Source: Chitinophagaceae bacterium (GTDB lineage: Bacteria > Bacteroidota > Bacteroidia > Chitinophagales > Chitinophagaceae). Taken from it: a DNA stretch of 64,000 bases. The stretch is from contig CANJQU010000013.1 of assembly GCA_947476485.1 (NCBI GenBank), positions 1 through 64,000 of the forward strand, in the 5' to 3' direction. A program made the position numbers and the translations under genes. The notes below the pieces were generated by a model that had not been told where the DNA came from, searched no databases, and worked only from the letters and a program-made list of their open reading frames with translations. Of this stretch, positions 7,766-10,487 are shown piece after piece. Positions within the stretch are counted from its first letter, which is position 1, and each line of letters opens with the position of its first letter.

Positions 7766-8968
7766 TTACATCATTTGTTTGAACGGCCATACACGGTATA
7801 CTTCGCCTTTCTTAAAGATACTTTGTTCCATCGGAAGTTCCATAAATGCGTCTGTGTCCAGCAGGTTGGCAAAGTCGCCGGAGCCATGGCCCTCCATGGG
7901 GGTAGCATGTACATGGCCATGCTTGCATATCTTCAGTTTCACCTGTGCGAAGTATTGCAGTGCAGGTGTGAAGGTCACGTCCTCGTTCAGTTCCGCAAAC
8001 ACCGGTCGTGAAGTAATACCAAGTGATCGCTCCAGCCACGGTAAGAAGTACCGGTGCAGGCACATGAACGTAGAAACGGGATTGCCCGGAAAAGCAAATA
8101 CCAGCACGCCATTCCCATGCTTACCAAACCAAAAAGGCTTGCCCGGCCGCTGCTGTACTTTATGAAATAGTTTTTCAACCCTAAGCTCATCCAATACATG
8201 GGGGACATAATCAAACTTGCCCATTGATATGCCCCCGCTCAGTATGATAACGTCATACTTTGAAAGGCATGCTTCGATCTGTGTACGCGTAGCCTCCGGC
8301 TCATCAGGGATATGCATAGTATCGGCTTGTAGAGAGTATTGCTGCAACACGGCTTTTACAGCATAGCTGTTAGAGCGGCGCACCTGGTAGGGATTTGGTA
8401 CTTTGTCCACATCCACTAATTCATCCCCTGTAGAAATGATCACCACATTCGGCAGTTTCTTCACCAGCAGCATACTCTTGCCTACCGATGCTGCCATGCT
8501 TATGTGCGCCGGATTGATGTACTCATTAGCCACAGCTACCGTTTCATCCTGCTTTTTGTCCTTTCCTTTTATATGAATATTCTGCCCTTGCCTGATGTTG
8601 TCCGTAAGCAGAATAGCAATACCGCCCTCTATCTTTACATCCTCATACCGCACAATAGTGTCTGTAGTGCCGGGCAAAGCGGCCCCGGTCATTATCTCCA
8701 TGCACTCACCTTCCGATTCGATATCGATGGGCTTATCTCCTGCGGCTATTGTACCTTTTATGTGGAACGATCTTGTTCCGTTTTCAAATGCGCTATATCG
8801 TATCGCAATGCCATCCATCGTCACGCGATTACATGGCGGCAGGTCACGGTCTGCTTTGAGTTCTTCCGCTAATACTCTGCCCATCGCTTGTTCAAATGCA
8901 ACAAGCTCGGTACCGTAATCTCTGGCTTGAACAAGGATGATATTTTCTGCTTCGGAAACTGTTTTCAT
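7766..8968 (-). CDS. moeA: Molybdopterin molybdenumtransferase MoeA
   Basis: This 400-residue protein has the MoeA domain order. The N-terminal block includes LPPCNRVTMDGIAIR, followed by the GAALPGTTDTIVRYEDV region, then the MogA-like domain with VVIISTGDELV and LSGGISMGKFDYV, and the C-terminal domain. It inserts molybdate into adenylylated molybdopterin. Its start codon touches the left inverted repeat of the GxxExxY cassette at 8969, so whatever lies upstream of moeA for translation is now made of repeat DNA. A separate MogA/MoaB gene is not seen here. Confidence 0.93.
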   Translation of the reverse strand: MKTVSEAENIILVQARDYGTELVAFEQAMGRVLAEELKADRDLPPCNRVTMDGIAIRYSAFENGTRSFHIKGTIAAGDKPIDIESEGECMEIMTGAALPGTTDTIVRYEDVKIEGGIAILLTDNIRQGQNIHIKGKDKKQDETVAVANEYINPAHISMAASVGKSMLLVKKLPNVVIISTGDELVDVDKVPNPYQVRRSNSYAVKAVLQQYSLQADTMHIPDEPEATRTQIEACLSKYDVIILSGGISMGKFDYVPHVLDELRVEKLFHKVQQRPGKPFWFGKHGNGVLVFAFPGNPVSTFMCLHRYFLPWLERSLGITSRPVFAELNEDVTFTPALQYFAQVKLKICKHGHVHATPMEGHGSGDFANLLDTDAFMELPMEQSIFKKGEVYRVWPFKQMM

Positions 8969-9013
8969 TTGTCTGAACTATGATTTGCCTGATTTTTGTG
9001 ATTAACTTGATTT
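8969..9013. repeat. Left 45-bp inverted repeat of the GxxExxY cassette
   Basis: It begins TTGTCTGAACTATGATTT and ends TGTGATTAACTTGATTT. Its only differences from the reverse complement of the right arm are three adjacent bases in the middle (GCC here, ATT there). The outer end touches the first base of the moeA start codon. Confidence 0.85.
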
Positions 9014-9024
9014 CAATTGTGAAC

Positions 9025-9423
9025 TCAGTTTTTATACTTTTTGTTGGTGAGCCGTTTTGTTTGTAAGCTTGTGGCTCCAAAATTTATTAATAACCCGATC
9101 TCGAGGTTGTACGCTTCAAGATAGTTGATGGCTTGTGCAAAATGAACTGGCTCTATTTGAACTATGGCTTTGAGTTCAACGGATATTATTCCCTCGACAA
9201 GGAAATCATCTCGCCTTGTTCCAATCTGAACGTCCCGGTAATAGATGGGCATTTCGTGTTCTCTGCTAAAGCTGACACCCTGAATATTCATTTCTATCTC
9301 AAGAGCCCTTTGGTAAATAGTTTCCTTGAAACCATTGCCCAGCGTAGTATGGACAGTTATTGCACACTGAATAATTTTAGCGGTTATAGCAGAGTGTTTA
9401 TATTGATCATTTACAATGCTCAT
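9025..9423 (-). CDS. GxxExxY family protein (PD-(D/E)XK nuclease-like)
   Basis: This 132-residue protein has the defining motif at G31-F-K-E34-T-I-Y37 and a downstream D72-D73 ... E83-L-K85 pattern that matches a PD-(D/E)XK nuclease core. The family is common in Bacteroidota and other phyla; its biological function is not established. It lies in the same orientation as moaA and moeA and so is probably co-transcribed with them. Base composition is more AT-rich than the moa genes on either side, fitting acquisition. The flanking 45-bp inverted repeats are described separately. Confidence 0.88.
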   Translation of the reverse strand: MSIVNDQYKHSAITAKIIQCAITVHTTLGNGFKETIYQRALEIEMNIQGVSFSREHEMPIYYRDVQIGTRRDDFLVEGIISVELKAIVQIEPVHFAQAINYLEAYNLEIGLLINFGATSLQTKRLTNKKYKN

Positions 9424-9451
9424 AGATCTAGTGATTTTTATAGAGTCTCAA

Positions 9452-9496
9452 AAATCAAGTTAATCACAAAAATCAAATAAATCATAGTTCAGACAA
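9452..9496. repeat. Right 45-bp inverted repeat of the GxxExxY cassette
   Basis: Reverse complement of the left arm at 8969-9013 with 42 of 45 matches. It ends four bases before the moaA stop codon. In a transcript the two arms could form a 45-bp stem with the GxxExxY gene in the loop. Confidence 0.85.
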
Positions 9497-9500
9497 CTAA

Positions 9501-10487
9501 TTACCCCCCTATCGCGGCCATTGACTCGTGCACGCTGTTTTTCTCCGCTTCAAACCCATCTTTCGCTCTATTGCCAATGGCGTTTAATAATGCTGTTTGT
9601 ATGTTTTGATCGCCTTGCCCTTCTCTCACGAGATCCTTAATATTCAATACGCCATTATCATACAGGCACGTCTTCAGCATCCCTTGCGGCGTGATGCGGA
9701 TACGGTTGCAGGTACCGCAGAATGATCTCGTATAAGCCGCAATGATGCCAACATTCCCTTTATGGCCCGGTATGTGGTAATTGTATGAGGTTGAAAATTG
9801 CGGGTCCGGTATTTTCTGAATATTTGGATACTGTTGTCTGATCGTCTCCAATATTCTTACATGATCCCAATAGTCCCGATAGCTATCGGGAGATTGATAG
9901 GTGCCGGTACCGTTGAATGGCATTTCTTCAATAAAGCGAACACTCACCGGAAGCTCTTTGGTCATGCCCACCAGTGGGAGGATATCATCTGTGTTCTTTC
10001 CTTCCATCACCACAGCGTTCAGCTTCACATCTATGCCGTGTAGCAGCAGTTGGTCCATGGTTTCCAGCACTTGAGGTAATTCGTCGCGGCGCGTAATGGC
10101 AAAGAACCGGTTCCGGTCTATAGTATCGAGGCTCAGGTTCACGGAGCGTATCCCCAGCTTTTTAAGTTCGGGCACCAGCGGGGCAGTAAGCACGCCATTT
10201 GTGGTGAGGGTAAGTTCTTTTAGTCCATCTAGTTTTGAAAGTTCGGTGAGGAAGGGCATAATATCCTTCCTTACAAAGGGCTCACCACCGGTGATGCGTA
10301 TTTTTTCGATACCCATTTTTATGAGCACGGCACAGATGCGCAGCATCTCCTCATAGGTCATCAGCTCTTTACGGGCAAGCCAATCGATACCTTCCGCGGG
10401 CATGCAATAAAAGCAACGCAGGTTGCACCTGTCGGTAACAGCAAGGCGGAGGTAGTTTATTTTTCTTCCGTGATTATCTATCAGCAC
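9501..10487 (-). CDS. moaA: GTP 3',8-cyclase MoaA (radical SAM)
   Basis: This 328-residue radical SAM enzyme has the N-terminal cluster motif C21-NLR-C25-FY-C28, the TGGEPFVR SAM-binding block, the C-terminal second-cluster motif SFCGTCNRIRITPQGMLKTCLY, and the terminal Gly-Gly that MoaA needs for activity. It catalyses the first step of molybdenum cofactor synthesis. An 18-bp perfect palindrome (9874-9891) lies inside the gene and encodes the SPDSYRDY segment between the EEMPFNGTG and WDHVRIL blocks. It is the first gene of the minus-strand operon. Confidence 0.95.
   Translation of the reverse strand: MLIDNHGRKINYLRLAVTDRCNLRCFYCMPAEGIDWLARKELMTYEEMLRICAVLIKMGIEKIRITGGEPFVRKDIMPFLTELSKLDGLKELTLTTNGVLTAPLVPELKKLGIRSVNLSLDTIDRNRFFAITRRDELPQVLETMDQLLLHGIDVKLNAVVMEGKNTDDILPLVGMTKELPVSVRFIEEMPFNGTGTYQSPDSYRDYWDHVRILETIRQQYPNIQKIPDPQFSTSYNYHIPGHKGNVGIIAAYTRSFCGTCNRIRITPQGMLKTCLYDNGVLNIKDLVREGQGDQNIQTALLNAIGNRAKDGFEAEKNSVHESMAAIGG
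9874..9891. repeat. 18-bp perfect palindrome inside moaA
   Basis: TCCCGATAGCTATCGGGA occurs here within the moaA reading frame and again, identically, downstream of clpP at 27690-27707. It adds in-frame codons rather than breaking the gene. A half-site also appears inside mobA near 7080-7095. Confidence 0.8.

Follow-up and report, generated by a model that had tools for sequence, protein, structure and literature searches.

The element between moaA and moeA

In the window (the whole 64,000-nucleotide stretch of Chitinophagaceae DNA analysed here), moaA and moeA are separated by a GxxExxY gene and by the two inverted arms that enclose it (Table 1). moaA scores above the TIGR02666 cut-off, and MoeA is identified by three Pfam domains. 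The sequence-only reading had described 45-bp inverted arms with 42 of 45 matches, one enclosed GxxExxY gene and an essentially seamless fit into the operon, and this description is confirmed: one arm begins at the base adjacent to the moeA ATG (positions 8966 to 8968, minus strand), and the other is separated from the moaA stop codon (9501 to 9503) by a spacer of 4 nt (9497 to 9500). No ORF of ≥60 aa other than the GxxExxY gene lies wholly inside positions 9014 to 9451.

Table 1. Features at the moaA-moeA junction of the window
Feature	Position	Strand	Remarks
Whole element: arm, GxxExxY gene and inverted arm	8969..9496	.	528 bp, between moaA and moeA
moeA-side arm	8969..9013	+	head TGTCTGAAC, then TGATT words at 9-nt spacing; abuts moeA ATG
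moaA-side arm	9452..9496	-	inverted copy, identity 42/45; moaA stop 4 nt away
GxxExxY gene	9025..9423	-	132 aa; PD-(D/E)XK residues E34, D73, E83 and K85 plus Q97/Y101
moeA	7766..8968	-	downstream neighbour; start codon adjoins arm
moaA	9501..10487	-	upstream neighbour, co-oriented

Each 45-nt arm opens with a fixed head, TTGTCTGAAC, and continues with TGATT words every 9 nt. The three mismatches between the arms are adjacent (GCC/ATT) and fill the first linker between words. They had been read as the trace of an edit of one arm as a block, an assumption that is superfluous, since they lie within a variable linker that also differs between the arms of the orthologue in genome G004 (L110), where the next linker differs as well. 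With ≤3 mismatches, the 18-nt arm head has two matches in the window versus 0.04 expected and 20 in the genome to which the window belongs (the own genome) versus seven for the reversed pattern; TGATT-N4-TGATT-N4-TGATT, with ≤1 mismatch, has 30 partly overlapping matches in 17 places of the own genome versus one for the reversed pattern. A unique local palindrome is ruled out by arms elsewhere in this genome and in its relatives. The predicted transcript fold contains a 45-bp stem (z −6.6 versus 100 shuffles), and an Rfam search of eight loci, including the one that holds the window element (L115), returned two SAM riboswitches, both in L225, as its sole matches.

The GxxExxY protein

The window ORF scores 131.2 bits against TIGR04256 (GxxExxY; cut-off 35) and 123.6 bits against PF13366 (PDDEXK_3; cut-off 22). 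These are its sole profile matches in NCBIfam and Pfam, and neither is a tyrosine (Y1/HUH) transposase. Across 44 sequences, E34, D73 and K85 are invariant and E83, Q97 and Y101 are present in ≥90%; the invariant or nearly invariant residues also include G29, G31, Y37, N114 and F115. The predicted structure (pLDDT 92) has as its top match 4ic1 (SSO0001), which we take to be a Cas4 protein (Foldseek E 3.2e-4, TM 0.57; by VIA, Z 9.6 and rmsd 4.5 across 103 residues); the remaining VIA rows, with Z ≤7.7, fall in the range of the tool's background warning. By residues and modelled fold, the window protein is a predicted PD-(D/E)XK nuclease of the RecB/Cas4/lambda-exonuclease type. Sequence profiles gave it no Cas4 score in NCBIfam, Pfam (E 0.001) or PADLOC (E 0.1), and no other match in PADLOC or PHROGs at E 0.1; solved structures searched by sequence gave none at E up to 1. 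A relative, L025, has weak PADLOC matches to Cas4b (E 0.01), Cas4 (E 0.019) and AbiEii and a PHROGs match to phrog_1706 (E 0.034).

The moaA-moeA and thiC sites across the genus

Among 35 genomes of the genus, moeA was found in 30 and lay next to moaA in 16. Four of these 16 junctions hold the gene with arms (G000, G004, G031 and, in reversed direction, G027), three a single arm (G001, G020 and G016); the other nine have neither, and their gaps range from 4 nt (G013) to 137 nt. Lone arms and empty sites, here and at thiC (below), were called by visual inspection, and one junction counted as empty (L119) may hold a degenerate trace. The comparison of this junction among relatives proposed by the sequence-only reading turned up both empty and one-armed sites. 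No target-site duplication was seen by eye between full and empty junctions. Placing the G000/G004 and G031/G027 proteins in one clade was rejected (AU p 0.0008) on a protein tree of 41 rows hand-picked from the class A side (arm word classes are defined below), which would imply two or more separate entries into the junction, barring gene replacement within pre-existing arms. The G031 and G027 proteins are sisters (100/91) despite their opposite gene directions, a pattern consistent with inversion between the arms or with another insertion event. In G008, the moaA-moeA gap holds a different periodic repeat, TTCAAAAGYCAAAA (L121).

A second site lies at thiC-thiD, where NCBIfam confirms ThiC; for ThiD, the tested piece does not reach the cut-off. 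Of the 35 genomes, 30 have a detected thiC: seven carry the gene with arms, five carry a lone or degenerate arm, and 18 show none in the 110 nt inspected. The seven GxxExxY proteins at this site form one group (support 90/90, not starred), consistent with a single ancient insertion followed by losses elsewhere. At four of the seven gene-bearing loci the arm head itself provides the thiC stop codon, as the TGA in ...GTC TGA ACC, and in G000 the other arm can, as read from the sequence, supply the GTG start and first codons of the next gene. In G005, thiC still ends with the arm-type GTC TGA even though the gene has disappeared together with most of that arm (L309).

Inverted arms at GxxExxY genes in other genomes

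The GxxExxY family is present in 68 of 99 genomes, the own genome included, and scores above the curated cut-off in 67. The 350-nt flanks of each gene were compared as inverted copies, with a threshold score of 30; flanks were obtained for 94 loci among the matches listed, corresponding to 97 genes, of which 92 were usable (≥150 nt on both sides). In the own and related genomes, inverted arms occur at 63 of these 92 genes versus 4.2% of 1,088 swapped left/right pairs, and no shuffled flank pair of this set reached score 30. In named genomes they occur at 60 of 78 loci versus 7.2% of 923 swapped pairs; this set comprises the best 80 of 575 relatives, with two dropped for a short flank (L199 and L220), includes many MAGs and leans to class B because L025 served as the confirming sequence. 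The remaining genes (29 of 92 and 18 of 78, respectively) fall below the arm score. Armed named loci come, among others, from Bacteroidota, Verrucomicrobia, Chloroflexota, Spirochaetota, Acidobacteria, cyanobacteria (Nostoc sp. 106C), Proteobacteria (Ramlibacter sp. Leaf400 and Thioalkalivibrio sp. ALJ16) and an archaeal MAG. The arms are neither confined to this locus nor missing from GxxExxY genes elsewhere, and relatives are not uniform; none of the outcomes that the sequence-only reading had regarded as unfavourable to a mobile cassette was obtained.

In the 123 pooled elements, median values are 36 nt for arm length (25 to 67 nt, 5th to 95th percentile), 0.88 for arm identity and 511 nt for the outer span. 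Chance or an assembly artefact, for which the draft state of the genome and nothing more could be cited, is extremely improbable as an explanation given the controls (the head count in the window, the swapped pairs and the ordinary ORFs described next), and the armed loci include strain genomes not labelled MAG, such as those of Nostoc sp. 106C and Ramlibacter sp. Leaf400.

Among ordinary ORFs of the same loci, GxxExxY genes removed, 1 of 202 reaches score 30, and this single ORF belongs to the four-helix-bundle family (TIGR02436, 87.3 bits, cut-off 24). TIGR02436, which we take to be the S23p family of 23S intervening sequences (IVS), is the only other family found with such arms. Inverted arms with a score of ≥30 flank 17 of 28 TIGR02436 genes in relatives versus 12.5% of 321 swapped pairs (L245 to L274; 30 loci, two dropped for a short flank), and their words, including TAGTAGATAGTCG, TAAGTATTAAGT and AGTCAAAAGTAG (TAGTA and TAAGT types), differ from those of GxxExxY arms. 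TIGR02436 proteins also give sub-cut-off matches to the Avd model of diversity-generating retroelements.

Arm words and protein lineages

Autocorrelation of the arms of the 123 elements peaks at lags of 8 to 9 and 16. The words fall into class A (TGTCTGAAC...GATT), class B (CACAGAG and CGCAAAG types) and class C (CACAGAT types), with minor words that include ACCACATAG and GGAATT; one universal arm motif is ruled out because the word classes differ. Since arms vary from one element to the next in line with the protein clade, the search with TTGTCTGAACTATGATTT suggested by the sequence-only reading retrieves one sub-type only.

Mapped onto the tree of the proteins, classes A and B require seven changes versus a minimum of 17 and a mean of 23.5 in 200 shuffles (75 rows labelled A or B; classes were assigned by word counts, which left 10 of 91 unassigned). 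Protein and arm distances are correlated, also within classes (Mantel r of 0.50, 0.31 and 0.34 for n of 32, 25 and 60; p 0.001 each). Linked inheritance alone could give such congruence. In a trans test of five genomes, 22 of 45 gene-distant arm heads match the arm heads of the genome's own GxxExxY gene, versus a mean of 6.4 across 120 assignments, of which only the true one reaches 22 (arms among the matches listed, with the G029 arrays within ∼4 kb of the gene left out). In G029, none of seven distant arm heads matches the arms of its own gene. Small as it is, this sequence comparison speaks for more than linked inheritance.

Arms without the gene

Solo arms, gene-less pairs and arrays, a tally of which the sequence-only reading had also called for, were all found. 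Of the 99 genomes, 48 contain the class A head and 42 the class B array (≤2 mismatches), whereas the reversed patterns have mostly zero and at most five matches per genome. Gene-less arm-loop-arm units of ∼50 to 195 bp are present in G038, G039 and G050. In G054 (46-bp period) and G029 (∼97-bp period), arms or entire hairpins are repeated in tandem, each array adjoining a GxxExxY gene. In the own genome, some lone arms start at or contain the stop codon of a gene (L009, L016 and L019).

At least five surplus arms (beyond two per gene) are found in 27 of 68 genomes with the gene versus 4 of 31 without (one-sided Mann-Whitney p 0.027, on the surplus). The link between gene and arm number is weak within the genus (one-sided p 0.073 and 0.075), and more than two arms occur in 7 of the 31 genomes despite the lack of a detected gene (G007, G014, G016, G037, G039, G050 and G065). 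TGATT-type matches, overlaps included, number 30 in G000, 27 in G004, 33 in G013 and 79 in G007; the genus-wide count of TGATT arms fails to single out the genomes with a window-type gene. G007 has no GxxExxY match, yet many of its 79 matches with a 9-nt period lie in tandem units of ∼193 to 205 bp (C30, C43, C76, C83 and others).

Other repeats accompany the arms. In the own genome, a further dispersed unit (ending in ...cccattataccccac) directly precedes several arms (L005, L007, L011, L012, L015 and L019), some of which, bearing this unit before them, are followed by a TATCACA array with a 10-nt period; TTGCTCATTT arrays with a period of ∼10 nt lie near arms at L009 and L017. At L225 (1160 to 2200), arm units beside a GxxExxY gene carry a different palindromic repeat (GTACTGAGCGCAGTCGAAGTA) at their centre.

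Selection, carriers and placement

At the thiC site, the left arms of G000, G001, G004 and G019 are 90 to 100% identical and the right arms 80 to 97%, compared with identities of 28 to 50% at four-fold sites within the enclosed gene and 23 to 82% in the spacers inside the element (G004 has four tandem left arms, of which the last was used, and four-fold counts involving G004, being out of frame, were left out). These arms are partly coding or stop; the conservation nevertheless spans the entire arm. Ten protein pairs have dN of 0.02 to 0.13, with dN/dS of 0.011 to 0.029 in the three for which dS was computable and saturated dS in the other seven. No recent gene copies were seen among the fetched genes: the closest of 78 within-genome pairs is 73% identical in protein. 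By these sequence comparisons, the unit is kept in place and resembles neither a decaying nor an active transposon.

A rival reading is that of a resident operon gene: the nuclease would bind operator- or addiction-like arms and so regulate itself and the operon, and the site polymorphism would reflect loss and horizontal replacement instead of movement of the element. Purifying selection (dN/dS as above in 3 of 10 pairs), arms conserved in place, the grouping of the seven thiC-site proteins and the lack of recent copies all agree with it. We judge it unlikely, as two non-sister lineages and a reversed copy share one junction, gene-less hairpins and arrays occur elsewhere and the host operons are widely different. 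The last include annotated neighbours such as radA, ade and fabD-fabG and the NCBIfam-named trpE-trpG (Ramlibacter) and hemW (Flavobacterium).

Phages and plasmids as main carriers are ruled out: the class B protein L025 as a query had matches in 8 of the 72,556 plasmid records and in none of the 50,697 phage records, and alignment A1 as a query matched one locus in IMG/VR. All four copies inspected from the plasmid collection have arms. On a Gemmatirosa megaplasmid, a complete hairpin stands on either side of the gene (L279, score 107). The proposal of a repeat-bounded unit holds, the unit being present, absent or one-armed at the same junction among relatives, but "mobile" is too strong for the present, because no within-genome protein pair is more than 73% identical, the unit is under purifying selection, and it is rare on plasmids and without a match in phage records.

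In 101 of 123 elements, a co-oriented upstream ORF ends between −60 and +300 nt from the left arm, and the gap from its stop codon to the outer edge of the arm is ≤12 nt in 69 of these 101 (median, 3 nt). This count has no matched control, and tight operon gaps alone would put insertions near stop codons, so a true target preference is unproved. Both neighbours are in the sense of the gene in 102 of 152 cases and both opposite in 10 of 152 (neighbours in the orientation and stop-codon counts are mechanical ORFs).

This strong sense bias speaks for the main rival, an RNA-level explanation resembling 23S IVS: the arms would pair in the operon transcript, RNase III would cut the stem, the loop with the gene would be removed and the neighbours would stay expressed, the arms being kept for RNA processing and not for DNA movement. 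The predicted 45-bp transcript stem and the finding that the sole other armed family is TIGR02436, here equated with S23p, point the same way. The Coxiella IVS, which is excised by RNase III, offers a likeness in its 28-bp terminal stem, S23p ORF and heptamer repeats before the ORF, as described in parts of PMC4990558. On the other side, sense-strand mismatches compatible with G-U pairing are not in excess (159 versus 136, p 0.20), the left and right arms at the thiC site share some mismatches that are retained between species, the gene is reversed in G027, and arm words track the protein clade, a match that would be superfluous for a stem acting purely as RNA. We consider this explanation somewhat unlikely.

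Relation to known systems and proposed mechanism

Several known systems share part of this arrangement. RAYT genes are flanked by REPs, and here too the repeats occur as dispersed hairpin doublets and singlets and bracket the gene. Further parallels with REPIN/RAYT, as portrayed in portions of PMC8049555, are lone remnants, vertical inheritance and near-absence from plasmids, where RAYTs are reported to be absent; more repeats in the presence of the gene, also described there, are a less certain parallel here. In contrast to REPIN/RAYT, the protein is a predicted Cas4-like PD-(D/E)XK nuclease and not a tyrosine transposase, the arms are arrays of 8- to 9-nt words, and the elements lie near stop codons in operons. 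The 23S IVS with S23p are similar in size (∼0.4 to 0.5 kb), terminal inverted repeats, long stem and single small loop ORF (PMC4990558, in part), but TIGR04256, the sole NCBIfam match here, is not S23p, the arm words are different and the host is the moaA-moeA protein operon and not a 23S rRNA helix. The gene-less arm-loop-arm units resemble MITEs; as differences from MITEs and insertion sequences, no transposase is seen among ORFs of ≥60 aa within the element and no target-site duplication is visible by eye. The predicted fold and active site are shared with Cas4, lambda exonuclease and MGME1, from which the 132-aa protein differs in being single-domain, encoded between moaA and moeA and without a Cas4 match in Pfam or NCBIfam. 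TAACTGA repeats of Beggiatoaceae and cyanobacteria are likewise short-period and intergenic, some overlapping upstream stop codons, but they are direct 7-nt repeats, and the available portion of PMC4679880 notes no bracketed nuclease gene. GxxExxY receives a passing mention in a section of PMC8934634. The bracketed arrangement was not found described in the open-access literature as judged by titles and abstract openings of the papers listed, which is no proof of absence.

We give an even chance to the reading that the GxxExxY gene and its arms form one REPIN/RAYT-like element, in which a Cas4-like PD-(D/E)XK nuclease and its cognate arms are inherited mostly vertically. This reading is drawn from arms at most GxxExxY genes across phyla, the co-variation of arms and protein, lone arms, gene-less hairpins and arrays, a moaA-moeA junction that holds two non-sister lineages and is also found empty or one-armed, stop-codon proximity and operon sense, and purifying selection on the protein and on arms at a fixed site. 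We infer that the arms are cleaved and that the unit moves. The nuclease would recognize the arm words, either folded (as a hairpin or cruciform) or single-stranded, and nick at them; rarely, the element or an arm pair would be copied or moved behind a stop codon, with vertical inheritance between such events. An in-place role, such as autoregulation or the processing of operon DNA or RNA, may maintain the interaction of nuclease and arms. Counting against the element reading, the two moaA-moeA lineages could reflect the replacement of one gene by another, and the lack of recent copies, the lack of a visible target-site duplication, the arm-rich genomes without the gene, the weak link within the genus, the unmatched distant arm heads of G029 and the genes below the arm score all weigh against it.

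Many genomes carry GxxExxY annotations to which no function is attached. If the arms are the substrate, each protein carries its own predicted site, proteins of different arm classes could serve as mutual controls and a stock of dispersed short-period repeats would be explained. Such a substrate would also provide a transposase-free route for keeping and spreading hairpin repeats and a connection with the unexplained origin of 23S rRNA intervening sequences.

More tentatively, and with confidence that falls short of even, we propose an undescribed class of chromosomal elements in multiple phyla, each a small gene between inverted arrays of 8- to 9-nt words that are clade-specific, lie at stop codons and are able to supply stop or start codons to the host. 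GxxExxY and, separately, the four-helix-bundle proteins of 23S IVS would be two branches of it, and CACAGAG-, CGCAAAG- and GGATT-type repeats scattered through environmental genomes would be their arms and footprints.

As a separate observation, hemW is flanked by a four-helix-bundle gene and a GxxExxY gene in two Flavobacterium genomes (L221, 236 to 604 and 1986 to 2360; L175, 430 to 756).
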